Below, piece by piece: positions 452 through 35,230 of a stretch of 64,000 nucleotides of DNA. Location: assembly GCA_947179485.1 (NCBI GenBank), contig OX359245.1, forward strand, positions 40,845,067 through 40,909,066, read 5' to 3'. Source of the stretch: Allacma fusca. Taxonomy: Eukaryota > Arthropoda > Collembola > Symphypleona > Sminthuridae. Both the position numbers and the translations under genes were made by a program. The notes beneath the pieces are model-generated. The model had not been told where the DNA came from, did no database searches, and was given only the letters and a program-made list of their open reading frames with translations. How positions within the stretch are numbered: position 1 is the stretch's first letter; every line of letters begins with the position of its first letter.

Positions 452-1432
452 TAGAGCTTCCTTCGGGTTTCCGAAATCCCGAAGTTCCGTGTTCGGAAAC
501 GGAACGAAACACTTTCGGAACATTCTCTTTGGTTCCGTCATTGAATCGGGACAAAACCGGAACATGAGCACTTGTACCGATAATATTGGGACCGGGACGG
601 TTCAGAGCATCGGTACGAAATCTGTCCCATATAATTTATGTCATCGGAAAGCGGAATTGTTCTGTTCCGTTCCGAACCGATCCCGGCACAATTTCTGAAG
701 CGTCGCGCCATCGTTCAACTAGAATGGAAACACATTTCTTATCGCACTGGCTTGTAAGCAGTTTTTTGCCAAAATAACGAAATTGGATGAACACAGATTT
801 AATTTGCGCAAATGCTTATATGTAATGCGAGTATCGTTTTCCATGAAAATCAACAGAATAACTAATTTTGTTTAATAAACATGGGCATGGGCGATTTTTC
901 TCGAAATGAAAATTCTGATATCGAAATTATTAGCAGTAATGAAGCAAGCTTGCAGGAAATTAACACTGTTAGGCCATTGAAATATACATGCTACAAATAT
1001 TTATTACTAAAAAATAATTAATAATAATTATATAATACTGCACAGTAGTTCTTTTTATATGGCATAATTATTATTAAATATTATTTTATATAATTAAATA
1101 ATAGCATTCCCTAGCATCCAATCTATTAAAAGTATATCATGTATATGTATTAAGTTGCCAGTAATTTGTACACGCATTTCACGTATATGTTGTGAACAAT
1201 TCCGGGATATTTCGGAACGGAACGGGTTCGGAACGGAAAAACTAGCATAATACGGAACGGAACACAACCTGTAACGGAAAAAATACTTTACTTCTGTGTT
1301 CCGAACGGTGTCAGTTCAAATGTTCCGATGTCCCGACAGCCGGAACGGAACCGGGACCAATATTATTTGTAGGTTTCGGAACGAAACGGAATTTCCTACG
1401 GAACAGAAATGTTGAACACATTGGAAGCTCTA
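452..1432. mobile_element. hAT-type MITE with CGGAAC subterminal repeats
   Basis: The ends form short inverted repeats (tagagcttcc at the left, its complement ggaagctcta at the right). They are flanked by an 8-bp direct repeat matching at 7 of 8 positions (gttcctct at 444-451, gttcctgt at 1433-1440), which is the target-site length of hAT transposons. About 250 bp inside each end is dense in degenerate copies of CGGAAC / GTTCCG. The AT-rich centre has no transposase, so this is a non-autonomous copy. Family name unknown; the hAT assignment rests on target-site length and end structure. Confidence 0.75.
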
Positions 1433-2234
1433 GTTCCTGTCAGCTTGTCATACTAAACATTTTAAGAATCGTTAAATTAAACAGTAGTTTAAGTAAAAAT
1501 ACGTTAAATTCATATTAAATTAAATTTTATTTTTAACTGTATCTTGTCATAAGATATTTGGTAGGTACTGTAGCAATTGTTGCTTTTGTTTACGTAGATG
1601 GTAGTTGTACCCCGCTCGGGAATTATCTATAGTATTTTATAGTTGAAAACGATAGAAATTTGAGAAGAGTAAAGACGATGCAAAACCGGTAGCTTGAATG
1701 ACTCAGCAAAAATTCTCATATAGGCTTGATGCGCTTGAGCGCATCCTAGGGTTTTTAATATTATATGCACATATAGTATTAAATTATTTATATGCTGCAT
1801 GTGAAAACTGTATATACGATATGACATGTGGGTTTCAATTAATTGATTTAAAATGTCCAGTAATTTATTTATGAAATGAGTGCAAGTAACAAACTAATTT
1901 AATTTCAATGGCGATTTTATTAATTTTAGCACTATTAATATCATTTAGTATTTGAAAATACTAATTATTCAGTCATGAAATTGATGTAACAAACTTGTGT
2001 TTAGTCTATCTGTTACTGTTCAGAAAAAAATTGAGATCCCAATAAATTTAAAATTATTTGAGCACAATATTAGGTTAGACTTATCAATCACATACTATTT
2101 TCGTTGTAGATAGTACCATTTTGCACCTTTGAAAACACATCAGTCTTAGAAAATAATAAAAACACTACTTTGAGTTGCCCTATTCATCATTCCTGTTCCC
2201 CAGACATCTTCCATTCTGAACAGTGCTCGGACTG
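1433..2234. other. Non-coding stretch with a dispersed repeat
   Basis: I see no credible coding exon. Positions about 1640-1800 match, in inverted orientation, the stretch at about 9335-9490 (shared words such as ttttgcatcgtctttactctt), so this part is a dispersed interspersed repeat. The rest is AT-rich sequence without recognisable structure. Confidence 0.5.
1640..1800 (-). repeat. Dispersed repeat, copy 1
   Basis: The reverse complement of this stretch aligns with 9335-9490: both run from an AT-rich part (atgcag(c/t)atata) through a GAAGCGCA/CAAGCGCA block to gagtcattcaa and ttttgcatcgtctttactctt. I recognise no coding sequence or terminal inverted repeat. It may be a SINE or a fragment of a longer element; the class is unknown. 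Confidence 0.6.
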
Positions 2235-2480
2235 GGTACAGAAACCGTGTACCCGTACCCATACCCGTACCCGAATATCGGGTACTACAAAATGCTGTAC
2301 CTATACCCGTACCCATACCCGAGTACCCGGGTAAATTATTTCAGTACCCGTACCCGTACCTGAAAATACAATGTAGTACCTGTACCCACAATTTACCCGT
2401 ACCCGTAATGTACCCAAAACCTGTACCCGTACCCGAGTATCTATTGTGTGTACCCGGGTATTACTCGGGTACTGGATGTT
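2235..2480. repeat. GTACCC-rich degenerate array
   Basis: About 245 bp made largely of variants of GTACCC / GGGTAC, spaced irregularly rather than in a fixed-period tandem. It looks like the subterminal repeat zones of the hAT elements in this window, but I could not find matching inverted ends or a target duplication. It may be a truncated element end. The left border near cagtgctcgg could be a terminal sequence. Confidence 0.6.
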
Positions 2481-3385
2481 AGGGCGATTTAAAATCCCCG
2501 ACGGCATTAGCCTGCCCAGCTGAAAAATTTTAATTTGTAAAATTTTTTTACCTCCATTAAAAGTGTCCGGGATTTTGGGAATTTTCCCAAGGCGTTAAAT
2601 ACATCCTATTTGAATTTAAAAAAATTATTTAAGGCATTTTTGGATTTTTTTAATAAACACTGACGAAATTCAAATCATACTACCCCAAAATAATAACTTG
2701 CTGAATGAAATGAAATGTGTTCTCGCTAATTGGAATTGGGACGGATTCTTTAATACTAAACTCTCCATAATTTGCTTTTCAACTTGGAGAACAAGAAAAA
2801 TTTTTTTTCCGGCTAATCGAACTCTGTGTATAGAAAATGTTATACAGAAAAATTGAGTTGATCATAATTTTTCCAAGTCAAATATTGCGGTTTCAGGAAA
2901 TAAATGTGGGAGGCAATATTGAATATTCATTTTATATTACAGCTTAATAAAACAAACATTCGTAAAATGTCTCTCACATTTATAAAGCCCGAGACGGAGA
3001 TTTTCGAAAAATGCAGGCAAAATAGAACTAAAATGCAACCCCATGGAAGTAATATTGGTGTGTTTTTGATAGAATTTTTAAACTGCAGTTGACAAATAAT
3101 CGCTTCTATATTACCACCACCAGCACTGCCACCAAAATGATTGTGGCGAAAGAATTTTAAAATAGGTTTTGTATCAGTGGAACTGGCTTCATAACTGCCA
3201 GCATTCCCCCCTCATTATCGTCTAATACTACGTATAAAACTCGTCCCAAGACTGGTAATCCCATGGTACTCGGTGGCTAAACAGTTTTTTTGTGCTACTG
3301 ATGTTTGTGAATTCGGCATTAGAAAATTTACAATTAGTTACGCTTTCAAAATCTATTAACTGTTCAAGAGTAGGTCTTCTAAACG
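2481..3385. other. Non-coding, nothing recognised
   Basis: AT-rich sequence without a supported exon, RNA gene or repeat structure that I can define. Short reading frames here have no domain features. Confidence 0.4.
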
Positions 3386-3783
3386 CAGGAGTCGGATTTA
3401 TGTGGGACGACGGGAAGAATCTTCCCAGGGGAAAAATTTTCCAGCAGAGAAATTTTCAAACGGGATTGCAAACTGGGATTTTCAAATCTGTTGACCTTTT
3501 TTTGGGCACGGATTTTCGAAATTGTTGAGGTGTTTTACTGCAAATGATTTTTCGACCGGAATTTTTGAAATCGTTGAGGTGGTTTACGAAAATGATATTT
3601 TGTCAGCAGTGATTTTCAAATTTATTGACCGTTTTTTCAGCAGGGATTTTTGAATTTATTGGGGTGTTTCACGAAAATTATTGTGTCAACAGGGAGTTTT
3701 AAACTTGCTTCGAACAGGGAAATCATGACCAGCAAGGAAAACGAAAAAATCTTCCAGGGAGATTTACAAAAATCCGACCCCTG
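3386..3783. mobile_element. hAT-type MITE, CAGGGGTCGGATTT family
   Basis: The left end caggagtcggattt and the right end (complement caggggtcggattt) are near-identical inverted repeats. They are flanked by 8-bp direct repeats tctaaacg (3378-3385) and tataaacg (3784-3791), 7 of 8 identical. The interior repeats phrases such as gggattttcaaa and ttgttgacc. Related but incomplete copies lie at 23932-24151 and about 24950-25120. No coding capacity. Confidence 0.7.
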
Positions 3784-3791
3784 TATAAACG

Positions 3792-4741: not shown

Positions 4742-4939
4742 TAATGTAATGTAATGTAATGTAATGGCTTTATTACGTCGAATCAACACAGTGCAAAGCA
4801 CTGATTTCCAGTGACAGACAAAAATAAAACTAAGTCATAGATACTATTCTACATATAATATTATAAATAAGTAAGAGAAGCTTATTATAACTAGTTACGC
4901 TTAGATATTAGCCATTTGTTAAGTTCGAACTGAAAATCT

Positions 4940-6540: not shown

Positions 6541-6566
6541 TTTGAGTTCAGGAATTGACGTACTGC

Positions 6567-8000: not shown

Positions 8001-8426
8001 AGTGATAAAGGAGAATATAATTAGTTTTTACGTACTCACAGGATAATAATAAGTAATCGATTGTCAGTCTTGAAGCTAAGATGAGTGTTGGGTAAAGTTG
8101 TTGAAGGAGTAGGATGCTAACACTGACACAAAGCGTGGATCCTGGTGGCGATGTTTTATTTGCGACGTGGACAGCTCACGACTGGAATTGGATACCTGGT
8201 AGTCCAGATGACAGGGATCAAACTAAGAATATTCGGTCCGTATTTCAACTAATTGACATTAGAGGCTGTCAGGATGCCTAGCGCCAATTACAGCTGGGGA
8301 ATCCCATTCACCGTGGCTTAAAAAGGGAGCCAGGAACCCAGATTGTACAGTGCACTCGTCAGTGCTAGGCTACGGGAGCCATAACTTTAGCGACTACTCT
8401 GCACAACAGTCAGAGTAGGGGAATTG

Positions 8427-9490: not shown

Positions 9491-9651
9491 ATTGGGGACT
9501 TATAACCAAGCTAAGGTGCTCAACGAGTCGGATAAAATTGGATATCCGCGGGCCGGATATCCGAAAATACGGATCGGATGGGAGGTCAATCCGATCCGAT
9601 GTAATTTTCCTAAATTTCGCTTTTATCTGAATGGTGTAAACATTTGACAGC

Positions 9652-12140
9652 ATGACGGCCTACGGTAATAGTGATTTGATTGACTATGACGAATCAGAGT
9701 CAGAAGCTGAAGATGACAATAATTCCTTACCTCAAGAACCTGCAGGGAAAAAATTCACGAGTGGAGTATGGAATCATTTTGAAATTGTAGACGACGGCCA
9801 ACGGACAAAATTTAAATACTGCAAAACGTAAGTATTTTCAAGAATCGGTACTTTCTGTAATTTTCAAAATATTGTAGAGTATAAAATTGAATCTGCTGAA
9901 TTGTAATACCCGAAATGCTGCTGATGCAAACAATGATGTTGTTACTATATTAACTTTGAATTGATTTGTCCGTATTTTCAATGCATGTATAACATGCATG
10001 TTAACCGTATAGTTTGTGTACCGTACTACATAGGAAATGCAATATCAATATTAATTAAATTATTTCCCTCTTTTTCACAGAAAATATAAAAGAATAAAAG
10101 AAGGGGGCAGTACTACAAACATGCGGAATCATTTAAAGAATCACCACCGTGGAAAGTTGAACGATGATCCTACCGAAAGTGCAACAAACAGCGCCTCCAA
10201 ACCATTGCTGGATTTTTTTCAAAGAGAGGTTATTTGACTTGATAGATATAGGATTTAAATTGATTGAAAGATGTACATTTTATAAGTTGATCAAATACAG
10301 TTACGGTATTATGCATTATGGTGGGCAGTAATCCCGCGACTACTTCCCCGTTGTCGTTGCTTCCACGACATTTCTACGATAGTGTTTTATTCCCACAGAC
10401 AAATGTACGCCACATGAATATCATGCATCCTTAATTCTTTGCCCATTCTATATAACCCATTCTGAAAAGTACACTCCCAATTATTTGTCCCAAGTTTTAC
10501 TTAAAATCGAAATAAACTTTAAATAATTCTTCAAATTATACAGAAAATAATTCCAAATTCAATGCCCCTTCAAACCCCAATGGTTCCTAATATCAATTTT
10601 TTGACAAAATTAAACATTAAATTTACAACATTTAAAATTTGAAATTAAATCCTTTTATCCAATGATAATATCATAGCAATAGCTTCTTATAATGATTATC
10701 TATCCTCGGGCAATGTTAATCAAAATGGCCTTTCGTCTGCTTCAACTTGATTATTTGAAGTACCCTTGGTTATTATTAACCGTTCAAAATGTATATGAAA
10801 ATATTGGTTAAGGTTCGAAAATATACTAACCATACAAGTGTAAAAAATGATTAAAACTCCAACAGGGGTTTCAAGAATCAAATTTTCGTAAGCTCCTGAG
10901 CAAATGGATAGTGACATCTAATCAACCTTTCCTGGAAGCCGAATCACCAGAATTTCGGGATCTCGTATTGTACCTGAATAAAAATGCTTCGGTTCCTTGT
11001 GCAAATACTGTCCGCAATGATATTATGAATGAATACAAACAGTTAAAAACTCTGAAACAGTTGGAGTTGCAGGTATTTATAGCCTTTCATTATATTTAAA
11101 TATTCTAGATAAACATGCACACACGTGCGTTGAGCATACCATGACAATGTTTTTACTTGCAAATAACTCGACTTTCCAGAATCTGAAGGGAAAATACAGT
11201 CTCGGACTGGATACGTGGACCGCCCCAAATCCGTTGCCGTTCCTGGGAGTGACCATTCATTTTCTTGACGAGAATTGGAAATGCAAGTCAATGTTATTGG
11301 AATTCAAGCTTTTGCCACGAAGTCACACTGAACAGCTGCTTTGCGACACGCTAGTTAATATATTGAGGGATTACGGACTTCAAATAAATAATTTAATGCC
11401 AATAAGTTGTGACAACGATACAAACAACGATGCAATGTTCGTTGTTTAAATGATTATTGTGTGAAGAATGATATTCAACTGAAACCAACGGAGTGCCAGG
11501 TTCGCTGTTTAGGACATGTTATTAACCTGTGTGTGCAAGAAATTTTAAAATATTTGGATGCTGCCCCACCTGATGACCAGATACCTTCATTTGAACAAGA
11601 TTTAAATACAGAAATTGTGAATCCTGACACTGCAATCGGGAAAAAGATCTCTCAGTTGCGGCGAGAAAGTGAAATATTCTAATTCCCTGAGTGAATCGCT
11701 ACATACACTCTGCAAACAGTTTGGGATTAAAGAGTTGCGCCCTGCAGTTGATGTAAAACACAGGTGGAATTCCACGTTCTATATGATTGAAAGGGCTAAA
11801 ACTAAAAATGCCACTTAATTCACTGTGTGCGAGTGAAAAGTCTTTGGGGAAACTGATAATAACTGAGTCTCAGTGGGACGAACTGATGGATTTGAAGGAT
11901 ATTTTGAAGACGTTTTTAAGTGCTACCCGTCGTGCCAGCTGTGAAAATGCGACCACCTCTATGTATATACCACTGTATTTGTGGTTACGTGACAGTTTGA
12001 AGAGTGTTGAAAACCGACACACAGGATCTTTGAAACAAGCTCTGAAAAGTGCTCTGATGAAACTAGAAAAATATCGCCCAATGATTGAATCATCGCCACT
12101 GCTGTTTGTGGCAACTGCTCTTGACCCCAAATATAATATT
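9652..12140 (+). pseudogene. ZBED-type hAT transposase pseudogene
   Basis: Exon 1 is 9652-9827 and exon 2 is 10081-10228. They join in frame and encode a BED-finger region (GVWNHFEI, KYKRIKEGGSTTNMRNHL), but the first zinc Cys appears replaced (TKFKYCKT). Exon 3 (about 10870-11072) reads LLSKWIVTSNQPFLEAESPEF. Exon 4 starts at 11180 with YSLGLDTWTAPN and SCDNDTNNDAMF, typical of the hAT catalytic region. Single-base frameshifts near 11439, 11675 and 11796 break the frame. After ATALDPKYN the LINE begins, and I did not find the hAT C-terminal dimerisation region on the far side. The protein cannot be functional. Confidence 0.85.
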
Positions 12141-12281
12141 GTATGTATGTATGTATGTTTATTGTGTTTCTGAGTATGCTCATACACAAAAGTACACTAA
12201 TAGTTTTACAATAATTTGCGATTACTATAATTATTTGATATACAAGTTGTCACAATTTTTCCTTTGCCGTATCCTTTTCAG

Positions 12282-12716
12282 TTATTTCTTGAGATTTTTG
12301 TAATTACAGCACTGATTTCCAGACACATGATATAGATTGCTTAGTATAATTGGGTTCGAGCTGCTCAACAGATTTCCGAGAGTTCTTTCTGAGGTTTGAT
12401 GTTCTTGCCTTAAATTATGCTTGACCCTTAAGTTTTGAAGTTTGGAACAATCTAAAATTAAATGTTGTATCGAGACTTGGGCATGATTACATAGTAAGCA
12501 TGCCTTATTCGGTACAATTTCTATTGTATTATGTTTAAAAATAAATTTAGCTTCTAATGGGTTTGATAATCGTAATTGAGCAATTAGTCTTATTTTGTAC
12601 ATAGGTAGGTTACACGTGAGATACCCTGGAACTGATGAACCCTTTAACAGATATTTATACCGCGGGTTCTGTTGAGATATCATTATTTTATCTAGGTCAT
12701 CTAGGTAGGATTTCAT
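12282..12716 (-). pseudogene. LINE C-terminal zinc-knuckle segment
   Basis: About 145 codons continuing the LINE downstream of the RT in another frame. They include CLLCNHAQVSIQHLILDC, a C-x2-C-x8-H-x4-C arrangement common at the C terminus of non-LTR retrotransposon polyproteins. A noncoding 3' end of about 140 bp follows. Confidence 0.7.
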
Positions 12717-12833
12717 AATTGCAGCCTGAATAATGGAGTCATATTTTTTCTCAATCCAATCTGTTGTAATTTCTTCCCAGTTTACACTAAAGTCTAGTTC
12801 TTCTAACTTTTCTTTTACCTTACTAGCCCAGTT

Positions 12834-14111
12834 CTATACAGGTCGAAGTTGTGACTCCTTGTCCATAGCGATGAGTTTCTGTAGAGTTATATATGGATAT
12901 CTATCAGGACTCATTTGCAATATTTTATATAAGTACATTAACGCAAGTTTGAGAATAGTACATCCTATTTTACACCTTCCTGCCTCTATGCGTAGGGAGT
13001 GGTTGGATGTTTTGGGATTAACTCTTAAAACTTGCCTCAAAAATTTAGTATTTAAGGACTCTACCGTACCCTCTTGACCCAATCCCCACACTCCAGCTGC
13101 ATAGAGAAGGTTTGACATACACATTGACTCAAACAATTTGCAGATTGATTCCCATGAGTTGCATCCGGAGGAGTTAATAATAGCAAGTATTGCACCTTGT
13201 GCCCCTATAGCTTTTCTCTTAAAAACGTTTGCTGTCAGCCTAAAAGAACCAGTCGAATGAAAGGGGACGCCGAGATATATATATTCCCTCACCACTTCCA
13301 ACGCTTTGCTTCCAATATAAAACTCTGGTATCTTTCTGGGTTGCACTTTGCCGAATATTAGAACCTTCGTTTTGGTGTCGTTAACCTGTAATTGGTTTAA
13401 CTTACAATATTGCTGCAATAGACCAATTTTTCTTCTTAAGTCACCGGGACTGTTAGCAAGAATGACAGTATCGTCTGCATACATTAATGTCAGAATAGTG
13501 ACTCTGTGAATAATGCTTATACCCTGCGCTTGGTTGACATTGAAAAACATTTCCATGTCAGCAATGAAAAGTGAGAATAGAAGTGGTGATAGAATCTCCC
13601 CCTGTAGTACCCCCTCATTTATATCCTGATACTTAGTATAACCTTCGAATGTTCGTACTCTGAGTCTAGCCTGGGAGTATATACTTTTTAGAACTTGGAT
13701 TATTTTCCCACTTAAGCCTATTGAATGGAGCTTTCTCCATTGGAGCTTGTGACAAATGGAGTCAAAGGCTCTGCGGTAGTCTACAAATAAGGCATATATC
13801 TTTCTTTTTGGGTATCTCAGATGATGGTGGATTATGCCTGCAAGTGTAAAAATTTGATCCATGCATGAACGTTGTTTCCGAAAACCTGCCTGGGATTCAG
13901 GAATAATACCACAGTTGTCCGCCCAATGAGCTATTCTAGTCAGTAATATCTGGGTAAATAGTTTTGTTACACAGCTTATTAAGGATATGCCCCTATAGTT
14001 TCCTGGGTCATCCCTGTCACCATTTTTAAAAAGTATTATAATTTCTATTTCGGTAAGTGCATTTGGACATTTTTCAGTATTAAATGTTTGATTAAGTAGT
14101 CCTAGAAACAT
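12834..14111 (-). pseudogene. LINE reverse transcriptase segment
   Basis: A 425-codon open stretch with the RT blocks in order: NYRGISLISCVTKLF, QAGFRKQRSCMDQIF, LFVDYRRAFDSI, LQGEILSPLLFSLF and the catalytic LMYADDTVILA. Fingers, palm and thumb look complete within this segment. It is open at both ends and out of frame with the endonuclease upstream and the C-terminal segment downstream, so the copy is not coding-competent as a whole. Confidence 0.85.
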
Positions 14112-14185
14112 TTGTAGCCAATTGTCAGGGAGTGCCTTTAGACATTCATTCGTAATACCGTCTGTGCCTGGGGTTTTCCCGGAAC

Positions 14186-15640
14186 TTACTTTTTTATAGC
14201 TTCTTTAAGCTCTACCATTGTTATGACCCTGTTTAGAAAGTCCTGCCCTACGTTGCTAAAATATTCTGTTTCTAGGTCTTTTGATGGCATAATTTCCTTA
14301 TAAACTTTTTCCCACCTGGTTTTACCTACTCCATCCCTTTGCGTGGCAATCGGCTTAAATCTACGTACTGAGTCCCAGAACTCTTTAGAGTTTCTACTGT
14401 TACTAATATTTTCTCTCAGCAATTCAAAATATACTCTTTTTTTGGAATAGCATAAATCTTTAAATTCTTTTCTAACCTGAATAATTTTTGAACGCAATGC
14501 CTGCAACCTCACCGCCCTGGAATTATTTAATAACGATCTAAGTTTTCTTTTCAGTTCCCTACATTCTGTATTGAACCATGGCTTTTCTTTCCAGGATCGA
14601 TTTGAAATTCTTTGTTTCAGACATTTGGCCTGCTCCGCAACTCCTCGTAAAGATTCTATCAGAGCATCTAGAGATACTTCGGCGTCCCCCCTCATTTCAG
14701 GTGGTTCTCTTCTGCTAAGCTGCTTGGTGAACTCTGCTATAGATTGAGCGTTTATTTTAATGCTTGTTTGATGCTTATATTCAATGGGAGTTTCAGTGTC
14801 ACAATATGTATTTCCAATTTTTAGGACAATAGGGAGATTGGGTGTGGAACCAATACTTACGACTTCAAAGCGGTTTACCTCCTTTACTAGGTTGTAACTG
14901 ACCAGGCAGAAGTCAATGGTGCTATAGGCATTGTGCCCCACGAATGTGCACTTTCCTCCTAAGTCTCCGTTGGTTCTGCCATTCAGTAGTATAAGCCCAT
15001 TATTATCAAAAATTCGAATAGTTTCTTAGCTTTACCATGTGCTATTTTATCACAAGAATTTCTGATGCAACTAAGATTTGAGCCAACTATCATCTCCTCC
15101 GGAATTAAGTCCTGTTCTCCAATTCTGCAATAATTGCAATAATTTATTAAAATCTCCTCCAATAATTACTTTCATGCCTGTGTCGATATTCCTTATTTGC
15201 TTATTTAATTCTGTCATGCATTCCTGCCATTCTTTATGTTCTATGGGCATATACACAATTCCCACAACAAAATATTTAGAGGCTTGTTTACACAAAAATT
15301 GTACAAGTACTAGGTTTTGCTTACAATATAAGATATTTACCAACTTAATTTTTTGAGATTTGAATAAAATTCCAGTCCCACCTGAAGCTCTACCACTACT
15401 ATACGTGCGTGTGCCAGGGAAGTGTATATACTGATAATTTGAAAAGTTTATTCCTAAATTTAAAGTTTCGGAATCGACCCACGTTTCACATACTCCTATA
15501 ATATCGAGTCCATTTATAATATGTCCTTCTGTCGTGTCTAAGTTTACCAAATTTTTTGAACCATGTACGTTCGAAAAGCCAATACTGATATCTAAAGTTA
15601 CTTTTGCATATGAGCACCTGTCCTAAATTAGTTTCACTAT
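14186..15640 (-). pseudogene. LINE endonuclease region (broken)
   Basis: Two reading-frame segments. The first (15550-15071, continuous upstream to about 15640) contains VCETWVDSETLNLG, FPGTRTYSSGRASGGTGILF and VIIGGDFNKLL, the conserved blocks of an APE-like endonuclease. The second (14941-14186) starts with STIDFCLVS, the end of the endonuclease, and runs into a basic linker before the RT. A frameshift near 15000-15070 separates them. Confidence 0.75.
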
Positions 15641-15984
15641 TGAAGTCCCGTCACTGGTATACTTCTCATTATCCGCGATTATCACTGTAGGGAAAATAAA
15701 TTTTGCTACTTTTCCCGGGTTTCCCAGTTTGAACCGTTTGAGTTCTTCGTATAGCACTTTATTAATTATTCTCTTTCTGTGTGAGAGCCCTGTTTATGAA
15801 AACATTTGGCAGCTGCCCTTTTAGTGATGCCTTGTTTTTTAGAATTGCCATTAAATCAAATCGGTCTTTCAGTTGTACCATCAGCGGCCGGATCTTAGAT
15901 TTTGCGTTTTTTCCGAAGCACCAATGATATCTTCATGTATGACGCTGAAAAGTTGGTGGAAGTCGGAACTAAGCTCTTGAATTA

Positions 15985-16163
15985 CAGTAAAATCTGTTTA
16001 TAACGTAATCGGAAATGTTTTTTGGCAGGTATACATAGTATTCCGTTATGTGATTATAACAGATATTATAAGCTTACTCAGCTAGTTTTTGTATGGATGA
16101 ACGAATTTGTAAGGTATAATGAGAATTTCGTTAACAAGCTGCCGTTACAAGGAGATTTTACTG
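15985..16163. mobile_element. Small pogo/Tigger-type MITE
   Basis: 179 bp bounded by inverted ends (cagtaaaatctg... and its complement ...agattttactg), flanked by TA on both sides (15983-15984 and 16164-16165). The ends resemble the CAGTAAAACCTG termini of the element at 18358-22146 and of pogo/Tigger transposons generally. It lies at the 5' border of the LINE inside the hAT element. Confidence 0.7.
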
Positions 16164-16479
16164 TACTGCTATTTTTAATGAATACATGTTTCTACATATT
16201 TTATCAGAATAAAATTTAAAAAATGCTTTCCTGCGTTTTTTGACCGACGTAATAATTTAAATCATATTGGTGTCGAATGCCGGATATCCGCGGATCGGAT
16301 CGGTTTATAAGACAATCCGGTCCGTTTTCTTACGGATCGGATCGGTTTAGCAACAATTTTCATACGAGTAACACGGATCGGATCGACTAAGCATAATATT
16401 TCATCCGATAATTTCGGTTCGGATCGGTTTCGGATCGGATGAACAATTTATCCGACTCGTTGAGAACCTTAAACCAAGC

Positions 16480-17004: not shown

Positions 17005-17899
17005 CAGAGGTGTGGAAAATACATGAAATTTATTATTAAAATACAAAATACAAATACATTTCCAGAAGCATTAAAATACAAACATAAAATACAGATACTA
17101 GGAACAACTTCGTTAAGATACAAAATAAAATACAAATATCCGTAGGAATTTTTCTAAGATTCAAGATAAAATACTTTGCTTAAACAAAAACGAAAATACA
17201 AAATGAAAATACAGTATTTGAAATGCAAAATACATATTGAAAATACTTTCAAATTTATCTCAAAGTATTCGTCTGAGATGTAGCTGTATTCTCTCAAGCA
17301 CGGTATCTTGGACAATTTAAAGAAATAATTAGGTATCCGAAAATTATTCAGGAAACTTATGGTAACTGGCACGTTATTAGAGTTTAGAACTGTTCATCTG
17401 TGTAGATCAAAAAAATACCATGTCCCTAGATACAGATATTTTTCCTTAAAACGAATAATCTTGTAACTCCGGGGTAACTTATCAGCTTTTATGTTGGTGT
17501 CACTAATTTTTTAATGACCCCACATACATACATACCATGAATATAATGTATTTATCCAATAAGTAATTATTGCAACAAACCAAGACAGTTGAAGAATTGG
17601 TTTCAAAATGTATCAAAACAAACTTCTATCTTTGAAATATTTATTTCAACATGTGATGGTGATAACTTTGGCAGTTGCCGGGGCTATGTATTTTGAAATT
17701 GTATTTTGTATTTGGAATACGACATGGATAACGTTACAAGATAAATAAATACAAAATATCATAACTTTCGTTGATCTTGAAAATACGAAATACAAAATAT
17801 CTTGAAACATTTACGGCGAGCAAAATACCAAATACAAGATATGGAATGTATTTAAAATATTATGTTAGATACAATATTTCAAAATATTCCACACCTCTG
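17005..17899. mobile_element. hAT-type MITE with AAATAC subterminal repeats
   Basis: Inverted ends cagaggtgtgga and its complement tccacacctctg, flanked by 8-bp repeats atcaaaat (16997-17004) and atcaaatt (17900-17907), 7 of 8 identical. About 200 bp inside each end is filled with variants of AAAATACAAAATAC. There is no transposase. Confidence 0.8.
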
Positions 17900-18934
17900 A
17901 TCAAATTTAGTCCTGATCGTTTCATTAACTCTCGAAGGAAAGTGCAGGGATGATAATCCGTTTTAAATTCAGCTACAGGTTTCTTCAAAATCCTAATACC
18001 TTCACCAATATCGACAATTTCTTCCTGCTGCTCCAGCTAAGTTTACTGCAAAACATGGTTTTTGAAATAATAATTGTTATTGTTTCGTAATCATTGAGTA
18101 CTTTGAACTGGAATATTCTCCTATAATACGAGAGTACACGGCATGGCAAATTACATAATTTAAAATTGACAAACAATTGATTCTTTTAATATCGGTGTTG
18201 AGATTTTCGTAATCCGTTCTTGGACCACTGGACGTTGATTCTGTGAAATTTAAACTACAAAATATATAAATGTCCTAATTTCATTTCAGTAAAGCACGTA
18301 TTAATTGCAAACATAATTATGTACGACAACCTATGAAGTAGGAATATAAACGTAATACAGTAAAACCTGTATATAATGGCCGTTCATATAATGGTTTCCT
18401 GTCAGAAAAGTGGTCAAGTTTTGCTTCCCGGTCCCAGCTCCTATCCTTTATCATGGGGAATTCCCTCTATATAATGGTTTTCTATCAGTGATGCGACCGA
18501 TTACGATTATAATCGAAATGTTCGATTTCGAATACGAGCCGAATCGATTAGCCAAGAGCTATCGGTTCGGTTGTGTTAATCCGAACATAATTCGAATGGA
18601 ATGAACAATCGAAGTTGGTTTATCAAACCGATTAAAGTTCGAATCGATTAGTTAAACTACAAATCCAATTTCGATACCGATTCTGTTTTTAATCGCTTTG
18701 TATTCGAAATTGGTTTTTCGAACAATCGAATTCCCGCCACAGTTTAAATTCCACTAACGAATCATACACCCCACGGCATTTTTATCACGAGGAGAGTAAC
18801 CACTTAGCTTATGAGGAATGTAGTGAGGAAGTAGAGTCTCAACCTCAACACTTTGAACGTCTTGAAAATTAATTTTCAGACAATATCATTGATATTGTTA
18901 CCAGTGACGCTGAAAGCTGTGAGAATACTCCGCA

Positions 18935-19012
18935 CCGCCGAAAAAACCTATCCGTTGCCCACAATCATTTTACGTTAAAAGAAAATCGGCATCATTGCAA
19001 ATACTTCAAGTA
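18935..19012 (+). pseudogene. Fossil BED-finger exon of a hAT transposase
   Basis: Reads RKNLSVAHNHFTLKENRHH then CKYF, matching the first coding exon of ZBED-type hAT transposases (compare WNHFEI...KYC in the element at 9652) and ending at a gtaag splice donor. Upstream acidic residues fit the usual exon start but contain in-frame stops. Only this exon survives. Confidence 0.5.
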
Positions 19013-19088
19013 AGATTTTAGTGCAAATAAGCTTCCTAAATATTTTGAAATTACTTAATAGACATATACTTATACTGTAACCCTCCAC

Positions 19089-19276
19089 TAGGGTTTCTAC
19101 TGGCACAATTTTTTGTCCCGCTGACAATTCTGTCCAGTCCCGAAATCCTCAGGACAAAAACGTTCGTCGCCATTCAGTCCCGAAATAAAATGGGGACAAC
19201 GATTTTGTCCCGAAACTGTCCCGATCCTGGTCCCGTCCTGAAAACCTCGAGACGTCAAGTCCCGAAAGAAGCCCTA
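19089..19276. mobile_element. Possible small hAT-like MITE with GTCCCGAAA words
   Basis: 188 bp rich in GTCCCGAAA / GTCCTGA words. The left end tagggtttct and the complement of the right end tagggcttct match at 9 of 10 positions. The flanking octamers match only 6 of 8 (ccctccac versus acctcctc), so the boundaries are tentative. Confidence 0.45.
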
Positions 19277-19527
19277 ACCTCCTCCATAGTATTCTCATGG
19301 TGTCTAACGTTTAATGGTAGGTATTACTTTTATTTATACATAGATCAAGCTTTGTTAAATTGTCATCCGGGACCACGAGCAACTTTATGATTCGTTTAAG
19401 AAATAAATGCCCAAAAGCAATTAGTACTTAGTCAATTGTATCAGACAATTGACGCTACAGTTCGGGCCGAAAAAACACTTCTTACGGACTTCTGACTTTT
19501 TTATCTAAATAAATTGAGGAATGGATA

Positions 19528-21205
19528 TCGTCGGTGAAGAGGCAAAATGATCTAGGTGCATAATCGATTAGAATCAAAATGATCTACATAACTTTTTCCC
19601 TAAAGGCAAAATGAACTGGGTGCAAGCCTCTTTAAAAGCAAACTGATCTACATACAATTTTCCTTAAAAGCAAAATGATCTAAGTGCTGGTCTAATTTTT
19701 TTTGTGAGAAAACTAGCATCTGTAAGGAGGACACGTGGCTTATAAGGGCTAACCATGACTGTAATTGACCTAGGGCTGTGGCTTAATATTCTCTAAAGGG
19801 TTTGCTATTACTAAGGATCATTCCGGCAACTAAAGTTAATTTCACTTATTGCATCTAATACATTTTTAGTTACGAAAACTGCAACATTCATTTATTTTAA
19901 AATCAACGAATTAAAACACGATTCAAAATCACAGTAAGCTCATGTGTTAGTGTGCACATTGAATTGGTTTTTCCTTTAATAATTCTCAACGTGGAGTTTT
20001 TTCAAATCGTATTATCCAATCATCACCATTATCATAACATTCGGAATCATTTTCAAATGTTAAATCATAATTGACAACTTTTTTTTTCAATGTTACTGAA
20101 AGAAAGAAATGGAGGCATTGGGGAATTAAATGCATATATAAAAGATTTTGAATACCTCGCATTTTTGTACACCGGCATTAGAATGTGTTTACCAAAGGTG
20201 TCCAAATGACTCAGCCTATCCTTCCTATTTATAAAATTTGAACCGAGCCTACATATATGCCTACATTTTAACCGCCGAATAGGCCAGCCTATCCTACATC
20301 CTTCCTATATGGGGAGCACCAAGCCTACATATTTGCCTACATTTCATTGACAAATTAGATCAACCAATTGTACACCTTTCCTACATTTTATGTTTTTCGT
20401 TACTGACAGACGATTTAAGGGCATTCCCCTCTGATTAAAAACAATGTCTCAAGTCAATGGAATCGGAATAAAATAGTTTAGTCGCCTTGGCCAAAGTCCC
20501 TAAGAGCGGAACAGCGTCGATCTCGCTTTGGATTGCGCCGGAAATAGTGCCAAAATTTTACAACGTTGGTCAAAAGGGATGTCATACTTAAGATTTCAAA
20601 AATTAAATTATACCGCAAGAAACATTTCCAAAGTCAGCTGAACAATAAGACAATTATGACAACGGAAATCTATAAGCTGACTGACAACATATCTCAGTAA
20701 ATCGTGTTTGAAATTTGAATTGTGTTCAAACGCAATTATTTATTTCAGTGGTAAACAACCTGCAAGTACCAGTCGCGGATTATTCTTTAATTTTCATTTT
20801 GCATGTTCCATATACCATTAAATGAAAATGATGTGCTTCAATAGCCTACATATATGCCTATAAATCTATGAAGGCTGAGCCTACCTATTTTGTAGGCTAG
20901 GTTTTAAGTGTATATTCTTGCACCCTATTTTGCCTACAAGCCTCTTTAATAAAATCCTCGCACCCTATAAATAGCCTATAAATAGGCCTATATGTAGGAT
21001 AGGCGGACACCTTTGGTGTTTACTTATATTGTTTTTATTATAATTTGTATCTAGATCATTTTGCTTTTAGGAGAAGCTGCATCTAGATCATTTTGATTTT
21101 AAAATTCAATGCAAGTAGATCATTTTGCCTTTAGTGAAACTGCAAGTAGATCATTTTGATTCTAATCGATCATGCACCTAGATCATTTTGCCTCTTCACC
21201 GACGA
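19528..21205. mobile_element. TA-flanked inverted-repeat element with CAAAATGATCTA repeats (nest level 3)
   Basis: Ends tcgtcggtgaagaggcaaaa and the exact complement, flanked by TA (19526-19527 and 21206-21207). Subterminal arms repeat phrases such as aaaatgatctacata. The TA target suggests a Tc1/mariner-like origin, but other assignments are possible because the bases around TA are also shared (atat). A second copy lies at 27787-28147. No coding sequence was recognised; the interior holds another insertion. Confidence 0.8.
20193..21015. mobile_element. hAT-type MITE with GCCTACAT repeats (nest level 4, innermost)
   Basis: Ends caaaggtgtcc and its complement, with perfect 8-bp target duplications gtgtttac at 20185-20192 and 21016-21023. 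The arms (20200-20400 and 20845-21010) repeat CCTACATATATGCCTA-type words. 823 bp, with no transposase. It is the youngest insertion of the nest by position. Confidence 0.88.
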
Positions 21206-22148
21206 TATACTTAACCGATTAATCGAAAAAACCGATTCGATACCAACTTCGAACCGAATAACTCGAAGGAAATAACAATCGATACCTTGTTTTGATATTC
21301 GATTCGAATAAATTGTTCGAATTCTTGATTTATTCGATTTCGTTTTGTAAAACCAACTTCGATTTGAAGGCATACTTCGAATCGGTAATCCGAATTCGAA
21401 TACGAACCAACATCGAGTTTTGAAATAATCGGTTCGATCGCATCACTGTTTTCTATATAGTGGTAACCTGCTCATAATGGTCTAATGAGCAATCTCCTTC
21501 AGTTAGAAATACAGCTTGAAGTACCTGTATATAAAGGGTCAACTAGTCAAAACGAAGGGATGCAACTCGCGCAAGCCCAAACCAATGACAAAGCTGCTTG
21601 AGTGTAGTTCAATTAAGTATTTGAGCCACGTTTTTATTTGCAGCGGTTTTATATTGTATATATGTATTAATTGCTAATTCATTGATTACATTATATTTAA
21701 GTACTAAGCGTCTGGTTGGTGCATTGAAGTATTTTCAATTAATTATTCTTTTAATTTATATGCTTTTAATCATCTAAAAAAATACTTTTTTTTTTGCTTT
21801 CGAACAATTTAGTAAAGATTAGACCGAAGTTGTGGTCCTCACACAGTCTCAAGACACGGTGTGCTATTAATGTCACTGCAGAGTTTGTCAATTGCAATAT
21901 TTATTGAAAAAATTCAACTTCAAAGTCCGAAGTAGAAAAATATCAGTGATTATTTTAAAGAAGTATTCAATTACTGATTTTCAATAACGTATGCAATTAA
22001 AACTTGCACGGATTCGTGCTGGTATGCCTGTAAATGCATGTGTTTATATAGTGACTTCTGGCCAATATATGCTTATACAGTGGTCCCTGTCTACAGTTGT
22101 CAAATTTTGGAGTCCCCAGGAAAACCATTATATGCAGGTTTTACTGTA

Positions 22149-30370: not shown

Positions 30371-31973
30371 GTTTAGTAAGAGTTTTAATTGTATGTACTA
30401 TTTTTGCAAGTCCAGTGGTAATCACTTAAGCTGAAGCTTCGCTTTGCAAAATGTGATTCCAATACTGACAGGCCTTTGCTATTTAGTTTGATACTCGTTT
30501 TTAAAAGTCCGTGTAAACGGACGAGAAAAAAAAACAGGTAGATTGGGACATTCTGCAAATGTAGGTAAAATTAAATATGCAAATTCTTAGGGGTGCATAA
30601 ACTCTCTTTAGTGTATATTTCTGGATTTCCCGTTATTTGCTCATTGGGTCGAATGAACTTTAGAGAGGGCTATGAAAGGTTTATTAGCACCCAGCACATC
30701 ACCCTAAATTCCTGGATAGAAAGGTACTCTGAATCCTAAGTCTGGACTCTGGGTCTGCACTGTAATTTATTGAGAAAACATGCCGCGTAATACTCAGCAT
30801 ATTTTTCTAATCCAAATATCTCAAGGACAGAAAACTTTAGATAATTATTTGAATTATTCACATTAGTTTCATACCCATACGCGAGTGTTTCAAAGAAATG
30901 GAAATTAATGTCGACAGCAGCTGGGTCCAATTGTAAGATTCAAAAGGGAGTGGATGTATGTAATTACTTTTTATCCTTGTGAGTGCGATAAGACAACTAA
31001 AAACTACCATAGTTGTTTGCCTTTGCTTCTTACCTGAAATACTTACTTGTGTGCCTGAAAGTAGAAACTTTCTGCATCTTCATATGAGGTAACAAGCATT
31101 GGTTTCGAATTAATAATGATTGTATTTATTATCACCGATAATTTATTGCAAGCAATTTATATGGAGAAAATTTTGAAAAACAAAATTTCGAATAACTTTT
31201 TAATTTTAAAACCCAACTCCTACCATAGGCGTAATACTTGCAGTAGACAACACTGCATTTAGTAGTAGCAATGTCAATCATGACAATTAGTCATTTTTAT
31301 ATCTAATTTTGAAATAGCTGAAAAACTGCAAAATAGAAAACATCACAACAACAATAATTATTCTGCATTGAAAACAAAGCTTTTGCTTCCGAGGCATTAC
31401 AAAGTTTAAATCTCAACGCTAAACATTTTTACTTGCTCATTCATACATTTGTAGAATGTATACCTACATTGAAATTGTATATAACTTTTGTGTACAGGTG
31501 AAGCACAAATAGCACCATTCTAAGACGATAATCTCCATATTGTCAAATTTTATTCCCCTACTTATCAACGTGAACAATGTGGTGTCATGTGCTTCACAGT
31601 GAATGTATTCCAAAACCAACAAGAAGCAGAAGAGATAACCCCAAAAAACCGGAACTTCCGGAACCTCCTGTATCTTGCAAGCACCGAGTTTTGAAAAATT
31701 CAGTACGAAACGAACTGAGGGTGTAACGTCACCGGAACAAATGGTTGATTTTGGAACATTCCACCAGGAAAGACGACATAGACACGCACACGGTTAGAGG
31801 GCGAAGGGAAGAAAATAAATATGGCAATGCTCGGCTTATATGTACTCATGGACTTACACACAATAAACTATTAATCGTAAAGCTAACATGCGGAAATGTG
31901 AAGTTGAACGAAGAATGAAGTTCATATTAAAATTGCACTATTCATTACAGTTGATTAGAATTGACTAATTATT
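30371..31973. other. Intergenic, nothing recognised
   Basis: AT-rich sequence between the small secreted-protein gene and the 3' end of the GGPPS gene. One minus-strand reading frame (30930-30736, FHFFETLAYGYETN) looks faintly protein-like but lacks splice and family support. Confidence 0.4.
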
Positions 31974-33698
31974 TTAAACGGCAGTTTTCAAAACTGACGA
32001 GGAAAGTTCATCCAGCAATGTCACTAAGTACGGGTTCCCGCCAAGAGCTTGAATCTCATCCCGGATTTCAACCTCAAGTCTTTGAAGTGCCTGCAGCGTG
32101 TACGCAAAAGATCCAAATTTTTCCAGCAACGACACAAAGTAGCGTTTTAAGTCATTATTTTTCGTTCGTTGCTTTAAAATACAAGAAATCTGCGTATCCT
32201 CGGGGTATTTATGTATGGCATGTATTACAGGAAAACTGAACTTCCCTTCTGTGAGATCCTCGCAGTAACTCTTGTTTTCACAATACTGTAAAACAAAAAT
32301 AACATCAACACAATGAGCTTTTTTCAGTCCCCTCACAACGTTAAGAATACAGCAGTACATAATTACTAAAACCAAATAACATTCTCACCTCAGCGAGTTT
32401 TAAGTTGGCGTAATCATCTCGAATTTGAAAAAAGAGACCCAGCAGTGAAACGAGTTGCTTCAAGTCTCTCTGATCGTCACTAAAAAGTTGGAGTAACCGT
32501 ATGGCTAGCATAAACAGTCCTCCAGTTTCTATAAACAAAAAAAAACAATCCAAGAAAAACTTATTAGGATCACCCCTCCAACCTCACCATCATCTAAAAA
32601 AACAAATCTCCCCCAAAATTCCTACAACTTACTTTTCACAATTGTCTTTCTGTATTGCTCCTCCGTCGGACATTGGAAAGTATCTCGCCAGTAAATCTCC
32701 ATCCCCTGCCCTCGGTGCAATTCCAAAAGTTGAGCCGAAAAGACGTCCACTGCCTAATCAAAAACAAAACAATAATCCCCGTTCAAAGATCAGTCTCTAG
32801 AATTCCTCTCATCCCTCCTAAAACCATTTCACATTCAATTCAACAAACTTACCCTTGCATGATTCAAAGACAGCACACGCTCAAGTGCTATAAAGTAAAC
32901 GTAATTGGCAGCATTTATTGTCTGCGGAATGCCATAAATAGCATGGGCAACCGGCTGCCCTCGTCTTAACTCACTACCATCTTCTATATCGTCAATTCTG
33001 CAATACAAAATAAAATAATCATGTCCCAATAATACTTTTTTTAAACTATCTCAACCAAAATCATCACAAACAACCACAACAAAATTCTTCCAATTAAGGA
33101 TCAATGCCCCATGCAAGTTACAAGTCTATCACTAAAAATATTTAAATTCCATGCACTATTTTAATTCTTCACGTGCACTGTAATATCACTATACACTATC
33201 AAATACAAATGCTTGATTTCAATTTCGAACAGAATTTTGCACAAGTGTCAAACGAATTCAGCATCATTAAATGTATTGCAATTTGATCTGTCAACGAGTG
33301 CAAGTTACTAGAAGCTTCATAACAATACTTATTTTAACTAATAATTATTATATTATTATTACTATTTACAGATTTTGGGAAAAAAAAGCAAAGCAGTGTT
33401 TTTTTTTTGTGACTTACAGCAAAGAAGAATTATGAAGTAATTCGACCACATCACAAACTTTGTTGAGAGTTTCAGGTGTTACTTTGAGCCAGTGATTAAA
33501 GGCGATAGCTAATTTGGAACGTACGTTTTTCCCTGGAAGAGATCTAATGTAGTCAAAGGGTTGAAGAAGGATCTTGTCATCCACATCTCCACTAGCACTT
33601 CCAGTCCCTGTTGAATTATTATTGGGTCGATTTGCAGCCACCACGGCAGCCTCCATCACCTCTTTCACTTCCTTCGGGGCCAATGAGGCTTCCTCCAT
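31974..33698 (-). CDS. GGPS1: Geranylgeranyl diphosphate synthase
   Basis: Five coding exons: 33698-33418, 32997-32853, 32753-32633, 32528-32389 and 32285-31974 (999 nt, 332 aa). A cytosolic type-III trans-prenyltransferase that condenses farnesyl diphosphate with isopentenyl diphosphate to GGPP, used for protein geranylgeranylation. The first Asp-rich motif DDIED is at residues 96-100, split from HNSSLL by an intron; [15 protein letters not shown] follows. The second motif is [11 protein letters not shown] (DDYAN at 220-224). [14 protein letters not shown] gives the usual C-terminal block. The first ATG in the exon (33698, [11 protein letters not shown]) was chosen; nothing upstream in frame starts with ATG. 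A Ser/Thr/Asn-rich insert (residues about 22-34) makes the N terminus longer than in vertebrates, as in the ~338-aa fly enzyme. A 5' untranslated part extends at least to 33789. Confidence 0.93.
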
Positions 33699-34309
33699 AT
33701 CCCAACTTCCCAACAGAATTATCAATAATTTCAAAAACTTTAATTAATCTAAACGTCCCTACTACTATTATAAGTACTCACTATAGCTTCTAAAAAAATA
33801 ATTTATAAAAAGGGAGGATATTATGACTAGCCTCTTGACAGGAACTAGTCAAAGGCTTTGCCGCCTCGTACGTTACGCCAAGTACACTAAAGTAGATTCT
33901 GTGAATCCATGGATTCACATAGGAGCCATGTCACAGCATATAGGAGAGGAGTGAGTGAGTATTAATGGAATGAGATAGGGAAATCATACACACACGAACA
34001 CTAGTGCTATTAAACTGCTGATGCTGCTGCTGCTGCTCCTGGCTCCTATGGAATGGCTCTGGCTATGAGGCTCCAGCTCTGTGACTTTATACTTATACTC
34101 ACACACCTGCAAAACAGACAACACCCTATTTTGAACCAAACCCGCCAAGAACCTCTCCAAGAATTTCGTGTAGGAAGAACGGTTATGGGCGTTACAAGGT
34201 GTATGACCTGGGAGAAGGACCTGGAAGGAAATATGGATGTTTCTGGGGGCAACAGGATTTGTGGGAATAAAATATGATAAATATGAGTAGAGGTTAGTGA
34301 TGGGAGTGT

Positions 34310-35230
34310 TCCGGTCCGGATTTTGACCCGGTTTGCTTTTTTGGGTAGCCAGATCTGGTATTCGGTCTGTTCCTGTCTGGGTTATAGTCTTGTCTGGTTT
34401 TCGGTATGGTAAGGTTTTTGGAGTGGTTCGGTCTGGTTTTGGGTCTGGTCCGGTTTTTGGAGTGGTCCGGTCTGGTCTGGTTTTTGGAGTGGTCATGTCT
34501 GGTATGGTTTTGGGTCTGGTTCGGTTTTTGGAGTGGTCCGGTCTGGTAAGGTTTTGGGTCTGGTCTGGTTTTTGGAGTGGTCATGTCTGGTCCGGTTTTT
34601 GGAGTGGTCCGGTCTGGTAAGGTTTTGGGTCTGGCTCGGTTTTTGGTGTGGTCATGTCTGGTAAGGTTTTGGGTCTGGCCCGGTTTTTGGTGTGGTCATG
34701 TCTGGTATGGTTTTGGGTCTGGTCCGGTTTTTGGTGTGGTCATGTCTGATATGGTTTTGGGTCTGGTCCGGTTTTTGGAGTGATCCGGTCTGGTCAGGTC
34801 TGGGTTATAGTGGTCTGGTTTTTGGAGTGGTCCGTTCTGGTCTTGTTTTTTGGTCCGGTCTGGGTTATAGACTGCTCTTTGGATTTTGTGGTGGCCCGGC
34901 CTTGTCTATTTTCGGGTTTGGTCCGGCCTGGGTTATATTCGGGTCTGGCCTGGTCTGGTCTAGGTTATAATGTGGTGTGGTTTTTGGAGTGGTCCGGTCT
35001 GGTGTGGTTTTTTGAGTCTTGTGGTCGGGTTTCCAGTCTGTTCTCATCTCATTTTTGGAGTGTTCCGGTCTGCTTTTTAGGTTGATCAGGTCTTGGTTTT
35101 TGTCTTGTCTGGTTTTGGTTCTGGCCTTGCTTTTTAAGTGGTTTCTGGAGTGTTCCGGTCTGGTCTTTTGTCTGGTCCGGTATAGTTTTCGGTCTGGTTC
35201 GATCTGGTCTTTGGCCTTGTTAGGTCTGGT
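34310..35230. repeat. GGTCTGG-rich array upstream of the GGPPS gene
   Basis: Nearly 1 kb of imperfect repeats combining GGTCTGGT, GGTCCGGT and TTTTTGGAGTGGTC, with a higher-order unit of roughly 50-60 bp in the middle. The left border tagtgatgggagtgttccgg resembles a hAT end (compare cagtgatg at 18486), but I found no right end or target duplication. It lies about 0.6 kb upstream of the GGPPS start codon. Frames open across it are repeat translations, not genes. Confidence 0.75.

Follow-up and report, generated by a model that had tools for sequence, protein, structure and literature searches.

The stretch of Allacma fusca DNA analysed here (64,000 nucleotides of contig OX359245.1, hereafter the window) contains several hAT-like transposable elements with short words repeated beside their inverted ends, the largest of which carries the remains of a transposase gene and has itself received a retrotransposon (Table 1). 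Eight hAT-like items had been claimed in the first-pass annotation, which proved mostly correct. For each, the best end score within ±40 bases was compared with 60 random placements, a null that omitted pairs with fewer than 7 of 11 matching end bases and whose highest score across the eight items was 16.6. Five of the eight (F1, F3, F4, F5 and F6) scored 18.4-20.6 at precisely the coordinates of Table 1 and, having inverted ends, 8-bp duplications and above-chance word arrays, are hAT-like insertions.

Table 1. Features of the window (positions as numbered from its first letter; TIR, terminal inverted repeat; duplication, 8-bp target duplication).
Feature	Position	Strand	Characteristics
F1, hAT-like element	452..1432	.	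TIR TAGAGCTTCC; duplication GTTCCTCT/GTTCCTGT, 7/8; CGGAAC arrays ~480-675 and ~1213-1405
GTACCC array	2235..2480	.	No hAT ends found
F2, hAT-like element	3386..3783	.	Ends CAGGAGTCGGA/CAGGGGTCGGA; duplication TCTAAACG/TATAAACG, 7/8; word GGATTTTC/GATTTT
F3, hAT element	9512..16471	+	TIR TAAGGTKCTCAACGAGTCGGATAA, 23/24; duplication AACCAAGC, 8/8; CGGATC words ~9570-9600 (few) and 16291-16440
BED zinc finger of F3 transposase, two exons	9652..10237 (9652-9828; ~10082-10237)	+	PF02892 zf-BED, E 5.3e-8
Remainder of F3 hAT transposase	10884..12143	+	Stops and frameshifts; RNase-H-like part 11799-12143
Non-LTR retrotransposon in F3	12282..15622	-	Inserted; reverse transcriptase, endonuclease
F4, hAT-like element	17005..17899	.	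TIR CAGAGGTGTGG, 11/11; duplication ATCAAAAT/ATCAAATT, 7/8; AAATAC arrays at both ends
F5, hAT-like element	18486..21448	+	TIR CAGTGATGCGA, 11/11; duplication TTTTCTAT, 8/8; ATTCGA/AATCGA arrays
G, probable 188-bp element	19089..19276	.	Ends TAGGGTTTCTA/TAGGGCTTCTT; duplication 6/8 only; GTCCCG ladder 19137/19177/19218/19259
F6, hAT-like element	20193..21015	.	TIR CAAAGGTGTCC, 11/11; duplication GTGTTTAC, 8/8; CCTACA array left, thinner right
GGTCTGG tandem array	34310..35230	+	Period of 44 bp, single orientation; no hAT ends found

A sixth element, F2, was absent from that annotation and was detected by a blind scan of the window, from which rows with low-complexity ends were dropped uncounted. 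Three other rows of the scan (31871-37969, 45776-52651 and 23309-30856) have ends unlike those of hAT elements and were put down to chance. G (GTCCCGAAA) is borderline as a seventh element: its end score of 16.2 is best at the claimed position but lies below the maximum of its own null (16.4), and its target duplication is the least complete of the set. A YARNG-type tip is the rule for hAT termini; of the 14 ends of these seven (F1-F6 and G), 13 conform, the exception being F2 on its left. F6 is the innermost element of a nest, while F5 is interrupted by later insertions and shows by eye a coding relic near 18798-19010.

F3 carries a broken BED-finger hAT transposase. The finger was recognised by PF02892 above the cut-off with both exons spliced, exon 1 by itself giving no match, and PF14372 (hAT-like_RNase-H) was found in one of the four F3 pieces scanned at E 1.3e-4 and 22.6 bits, below the curated cut-off of 27. 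By eye, a phenylalanine stands at one expected zinc-binding cysteine of the finger. The Pfam scan covered F3 and F5 and recognised a BED finger in F3 only, with no Pfam match for the F5 relic; the remaining elements (F1, F2, F4, F6 and G) have no open frame of at least 120 aa. A search of solved structures with the sequence of the F3 BED region yielded two entries with E of 1 or below: ZBED1, weakly (E 0.66), and a kinesin, which is unrelated. Relatives of the F3 transposase were sought in viral contigs with one 115-aa fragment, which gave nine pattern matches and none confirmed, and an Rfam search of the window gave nothing at or above a family's gathering score.

The enrichment of words was assessed by taking, for each item, the most frequent 6-mer within 250 bp of its two ends and comparing its count with those in 2,000 segment pairs from outside the eight claimed items, in which the mean count was 3.9, the 99th percentile 7 and the maximum 10. 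The counts for F1 (CGGAAC, 18), F3 (ATCCGA, 13; CGGATC, 10), F4 (AAATAC, 22) and F5 (ATTCGA, 12) were matched by none of the control pairs, and that for F6 (CCTACA, 10) by a fraction of 0.0005. Against 300 shuffles of their own ends, F1, F3, F4 and F6 stood clearly above the shuffle maxima (6-7), whereas F5 was less extreme (12 against a maximum of 11). In G the commonest 6-mer occurred 7 times (control fraction 0.0235), though this count comes from only 2 x 94 bp of sequence. The arrays had been described as lying at both ends of every family, which is clear for F1, F4 and F5 but weaker on the left of F3 (two exact CGGATC) and the right of F6 (top 6-mer 4). Similarly, the long words first given for F5 and F6 were overstated, given that exact CGATTCGAA and CCTACATATATGCC occur three times and twice, respectively, in the whole window, the workable core words being ATTCGA/AATCGA for F5 and CCTACA for F6.

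The privacy of the words, by comparison, was borne out. A table of words by arrays is near diagonal, each of nine words occurring 7-22 times in its own array and 70 of the 72 off-diagonal cells holding 0 or 1 (the exceptions being 4 CGGGAC in F1 and 2 CGGAAC in the GGTCTGG array), which contradicts random sharing between families. The first-pass annotation had gone further and suggested rapid co-evolution of BED-finger transposases with their words, which in its strong form would mean that a change in finger or word is answered by a change in the other. In keeping with this, the words differ among all seven elements (F1-F6 and G), and elements with more similar inverted ends weakly tend to have more similar words (post hoc Mantel test on seven elements, r 0.44, P 0.026). 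However, the window holds one recognised BED finger only, on a broken copy, which leaves nothing to co-vary within it, and long divergence together with separate arrivals of the families would yield the same picture; we therefore regard so strong a form as possible but doubtful.

Beyond the words themselves, several elements with different words have a common repeat pitch of about 41 bp. We consider this to be new here, a literature search having listed no published report of a common pitch. In the right array of F3 (plus strand), CGGATCGGATC doublets at 16291, 16333 and 16374 and a variant at 16415 form a ladder of 41-42 bp, and comparable ladders are seen in F4 (17046/17087/17128/17169 and 17747/17788/17830). 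Same-strand word pairs at 40-42 bp number 14 against 4.3 expected (lag-corrected P 0.0033); none comes from either end of F5 or F6 or from the left of F3, so that this test rests on F1, F3 and F4. A word-agnostic test likewise returned 40-42 bp as the strongest repeat lag (P = 0.0004, with the element as unit and correction for the choice of lag), with P 0.0003-0.009 when elements were left out one at a time and a lag of 41 in all 24 of 24 overlapping settings (P 0.0005-0.0085). Five termini supply 22 of its 30 events, F2 and F5 contributing one event per end. For the words GTCCCG and GTACCC, which stood outside the main word-pair test and whose distances were known beforehand, P was 0.012 and 0.075 (not significant), respectively. 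The pitch is carried by four or five of the seven elements within one window and, as it was noticed post hoc, should be interpreted with caution.

Such a pitch could also be debris of slippage: the arrays would be degenerate minisatellites that expanded at the ends of transposons and have no role in binding, with the word a remnant of the repeat unit and 41 bp the ancestral unit length. In favour of this, tandem-repeat detection picks out the right array of F3 with a 41-bp unit (2.4 copies, 75% matches), and with the words masked the spacers of that array agree somewhat more than expected at lag 41 (identity 0.43; background mean 0.32, sd 0.08). There and in the left array of F6 the exact words share a single orientation, and nearly so on the left of F4, as slippage would also produce, which counts against a selected pitch; GGTCTGG, moreover, is a plain tandem repeat. 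In F1, F4, F5, F6 and G, however, masked spacers are hardly more alike at lag 41 than the background, albeit measured on few bases (45-104 per array), and this leans to selected spacing over simple duplication. Slippage is further contradicted by the mixed orientation of exact words in the left array of F1, the right array of F4 and both arrays of F5 (orientation is mixed on the right of F6 as well), and by the presence of arrays at the two ends of several distinct elements; we consider it unlikely.

Published work on Ac, Herves, Hermes and the hAT-19/CGGBP family already shows that the subterminal word recognised varies from one hAT transposase to another. In Ac/Ds of maize, AAACGG hexamer repeats occupy the terminal ~200 bp and are bound cooperatively by the transposase (PMC3260210); a short hexamer repeated near the ends is shared with the elements described here, but the word differs, and the available part of that report mentions no regular pitch. 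Herves of Anopheles gambiae has a private subterminal word, CG/AATTCAT, at both ends that is sufficient for transposase binding (PMC3143072); it is resembled by the CGATTCGAA of F5 but is repeated several times rather than in a long array, with no pitch given in the sections at hand. The BED finger of Hermes binds subterminal AAG(T/C) repeats in a multimeric transpososome in which exact phasing is called crucial, with S66, N67 and R70 as base-contacting residues, although its word has four bases and its arrangement differs between the two ends (PMC10368747). Proteins of the hAT-19/CGGBP family combine BED and Hermes-type domains and have widely differing, often CGG-containing specificities, and for each of the four hAT proteins that yielded a motif, it matched the subterminal regions of the protein's own element (PMC8097297); CGG words also occur in F1, F3 and G.

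We suggest, with a probability of roughly 0.7, that each array is a subterminal cluster of sites bound by the BED zinc finger of the family's own hAT transposase. This candidate reading is based on the hAT-type insertions, the private end words, the BED/hAT relic in F3 and the pitch common to several elements, with Hermes, Herves and Ac as precedents. The transposase would assemble as a multimer, several of whose BED fingers could hold consecutive word copies about four helical turns apart, and in gripping these copies they would bring the element's two termini together in the cutting complex. Each transposase would be confined to its own family by its word, and words may shift from family to family, CGGAAC, CGGATC and CGGGAC resembling neighbours on a CGGNNC theme, while the pitch might be preserved through the transposases' common shape. 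Against this stands the fact that the only recognised BED finger lies in a broken copy. In addition, the important sites of Hermes are few and near the tip, its right-end sites are reported not to engage the BED domains, and the binding of auxiliary transposases at inner sites is called unlikely (PMC10368747), so that long regular arrays are evidently not a general need of hAT elements.

It is very improbable, in our view, that the words instead bind another protein, whether TE-encoded or a host regulator, with an effect on silencing or expression rather than cutting: the VANC targets in Arabidopsis VANDAL, where a TE-encoded protein reads private, tandem and changing short-motif arrays, are a close formal match (PMC5735166), but there the element is Mutator-like, the protein anti-silencing and the described arrays in introns and upstream regions, whereas here the arrays adjoin the inverted ends even in elements below 1 kb without a 120-aa frame (F1, F2, F4 and F6), on which it is the transposase that has to act (for F3, the search for a second gene covered the list of open frames only).

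Returning to the BED-site reading, we tentatively extend it, with considerable doubt, to an end code of two layers: (i) a fixed geometry of word copies, often doublets, about 41 bp apart and set by the transposase multimer, and (ii) an exchangeable family word read by the BED finger, so that new families could arise by a change of word and finger with the scaffold kept. If true, this would explain how related transposons can share one nucleus, and many families inhabit one genome, without cross-mobilisation, and the matching of words would offer a sequence-only route for pairing small gene-free elements with their transposase. How a finger and its site change together is a long-standing question in protein-DNA recognition, and should words prove exchangeable on a fixed pitch, a genome with many hAT families would be a natural experiment on such change without loss of function.

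The two remaining items, GTACCC and GGTCTGG, had been put forward as probable hAT families, an assignment that failed on inverted ends and 8-bp duplication: their end scores of 15.2 and 14.2 fall within the null (maximum 15.4 for each). Both are nevertheless strong arrays, with commonest 6-mer counts of 15 and 16, respectively, and in the GGTCTGG array, a 44-bp tandem repeat instead, 23 of 23 exact copies inside the array lie on the same strand.

The first-pass annotation had proposed eight hAT-like families (three of them as probable), each with a private short-word array at its ends, and had suggested rapid co-evolution of finger and word. Ends were scored by the inverted repeat over the first 11 bases together with 8-bp direct flanks (tolerance of ±40 bases; null of 60 random placements per item, pairs with fewer than 7/11 matching end bases skipped). 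Five of the eight items, the CGGAAC, CGGATC, AAATAC, ATTCGA/AATCGA and CCTACA elements, scored best exactly where they had been placed, at 18.4-20.6 against a maximum of 16.6 in the null of all items. The GTCCCGAAA item (GTCCCG/CGGGAC word) likewise peaks at its claimed coordinates, but with an end score of just 16.2, and the GTACCC and GGTCTGG items, at 15.2 and 14.2, also lie under the null maximum and are not retained as hAT elements. When the full 64 kb was scanned blind (inverted ends of at least 10/11, duplication of at least 7/8, length 100-8000, low-complexity-end rows removed uncounted), nine rows were returned: the five confirmed elements, one new element and three long rows, which were rejected as hAT elements, their ends being without hAT likeness.

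Features of the window, with word ladders and counts at 40-42 bp (L, R: left, right terminus; word-agnostic events at every other terminus number 0-1)
Feature	Position	Ladder (word positions)	Word pairs	Word-agnostic events
CGGAAC element	452-1432		L 1, R 2	R 4
GTACCC array	2235-2480			
New element	3386-3783			
Second non-LTR retrotransposon (reverse strand)	4740-8027			
TGTAA repeats	4740-4766			
CGGATC element	9512-16471	R 16291/16333/16374, variant 16415	L 0, R 5	R 4
Small palindromic element	15985-16175			
AAATAC element	17005-17899	L 17046/17087/17128/17169; R 17747/17788/17830	L 3, R 3	L 5, R 5
Four-deep nest	18355-22149			
ATTCGA/AATCGA element	18486-21448		0	
GTCCCG/CGGGAC element (probable)	19089-19276	19137/19177/19218/19259		
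TA-bordered element	19525-21208			
CCTACA element	20193-21015		0	R 4
Relative of TA-bordered element	27784-28150			
GGTCTGG tandem array	34295-35230			
Host gene (minus strand)	39162-47371			

Judged by eye, the inverted ends form two sets: the first (TAGAGCTTCC / TAAGGTTCTC / TAGGGCTTCT) belongs to the CGGAAC, CGGATC and GTCCCG/CGGGAC elements, whose words (CGGAAC, CGGATC, CGGGAC) have a CGGNNC theme in common, and the second, of CARNG types, to the AAATAC, ATTCGA, CCTACA and new elements, the left end of the last excepted. Likeness of ends and likeness of words are weakly correlated (Mantel r 0.44, P 0.026, 5,040 permutations), a relation noticed post hoc. A decayed transposase gene is present in the CGGATC element, with a BED finger in two exons (PF02892, E 5.3e-8 in Pfam, exons joined by hand) and a hAT RNase-H segment under the curated cut-off (PF14372, E 1.3e-4), matched by one of four further pieces that were scanned; a reverse-strand non-LTR element interrupts the CGGATC element (reverse transcriptase PF00078, E 5.9e-32; endonuclease PF03372, E 2.2e-6). 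The coding relic of the ATTCGA element shows, by eye, a BED-like half-motif followed by GTAAG where the CGGATC element has its intron, and gave no match in a Pfam scan. Open frames of at least 120 aa were sought in the CGGAAC, AAATAC, CCTACA, GTCCCG and new elements, and none is present.

The arrays themselves were borne out at the ends of the five confirmed elements, where the top 6-mer reaches 10-22 copies per terminal 250-bp pair, as against a mean of 3.87 (99th percentile 7, maximum 10) in 2,000 segment pairs outside the eight claimed items; when each element is set against shuffled versions of its own termini, the ATTCGA element stands out least (12 vs a maximum of 11 in 300 shuffles). 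The words are also private, as had been claimed: each matches the array it belongs to 7-22 times, whereas all 72 off-diagonal cells of the word-by-array table are 0 or 1, save four CGGGAC in the CGGAAC element and two CGGAAC in the GGTCTGG array. As the words were picked from the arrays, a high diagonal is inevitable, and the information lies in the empty off-diagonal. For the proposed nine- and fourteen-letter words, the arrays stand and the exact forms mostly do not, with three and two exact copies in the window.

Within these layouts, word copies form ladders 40-42 bp apart. In the pooled arrays of the five confirmed elements, with doublets kept together, there are 14 same-strand word pairs at this distance vs 4.3 expected (P 0.0033, corrected for the choice of lag). 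When events of any repeated 6-mer were counted by lag (15-100) in the 14 termini of all six elements and the GTCCCG element, the top 3-bp bin was again 40-42, with 30/248 events; P was 0.0001 when the lag spectrum of each terminus was rotated at random, 0.0004 when both ends of an element were rotated jointly, and 0.0003-0.009 with any single element left out. Among 300 control sets of 14 segments outside the elements, the top bin never exceeded 14 and the best lag was 40-42 in six; these sets are poorer in repeat events (mean 58 vs 248), so that the fair comparison is one of lag, not bin height. A centre of 41 was best in 24 of 24 settings (terminal length 150-300, word length 5-7, seven or five elements; P 0.0005-0.0085), which overlap in data. 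Arrays outside the pooled pair test gave P 0.012 (GTCCCG) and 0.075 (GTACCC), their distances having been inspected beforehand. All the evidence for the pitch is drawn from a single window in a single genome.

Once the words are masked, the spacers' identity at lag 41 (45-104 bases per array) is near the all-lag mean everywhere except in the right array of the CGGATC element (0.43 vs 0.32, sd 0.08). This array may thus be an old tandem repeat, while in the remaining ladders the spacing seems to be kept with no homology between the spacers.

The simplest reading of the spacing is a Hermes-like grip on longer arrays, in which copies of the word, separated by about four turns of the helix, would be offered in succession to the fingers of successive protomers. 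According to the Hermes paper (PMC10368747), the BED fingers of three protomers, out of three dimers of the octamer, hold the subterminal repeats, and shifting the first two sites by even one base severely impairs cleavage. Against a Hermes-like grip count two of its headings, by which right-end repeats are not engaged by BED domains and auxiliary transposases at inner sites are unlikely to support transposition in cells. A figure legend there names S66, N67 and R70 as base-contact residues; the CGGATC element's finger has STTNMRNHLKNHH in the matching stretch (alignment by eye).

In published work, subterminal words are bound by the transposases of Ac (AAACGG; PMC3260210), Herves (CG/AATTCAT; PMC3143072) and Hermes (AAG(T/C); PMC10368747), and the repeated hexamer AATTCA of Kat1 is a suspected transposase-bound word (PMC4763223). 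BED proteins of hAT-19 type are described as having widely different, mostly CGG-containing specificities, the motifs of four hAT proteins matching the subterminal regions of their own elements (PMC8097297). VANDAL/VANC offers a precedent for co-evolving private tandem motif arrays (PMC5735166). In view of this literature, the general idea of the first-pass annotation is not new. Searches of open papers listed no report of a pitch that families share while their words differ, subscription journals being mostly outside the search.

The inverted ends of the TA-bordered element are 63 bp long (98% complementary), and its subterminal repeats, around GCAAAATGATCTACATGC, recur at 32 bp, a pitch of its own; subterminal arrays here are therefore not limited to hAT elements; its relative carries similar repeats. 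It is part of the four-deep nest, in which a pogo/Tigger-like element (ends ACAGTAAAACCTGTATATAATGG) encloses the CGATTCGAA hAT (the ATTCGA element), this the TA-bordered element, and this the CCTACA hAT, which gives the relative order of insertions. The palindromic element inside the CGGATC element has ends (ACAGTAAAATCTG...GATTTTACTGT) that by eye resemble those of the pogo-like one. The GGTCTGG array, with periods of 44 bp and 115 bp, starts beside a hAT-like tip, TAGTGATGGGA, at ~34295 (by eye), and is possibly a hAT end with an expanded array. The second non-LTR retrotransposon, in which the TGTAA repeats lie, has a reverse transcriptase, an endonuclease and a PHD-finger match under cut-off, and the host gene encodes spectrin repeats (Pfam match in the single frame scanned, 42174-43097).
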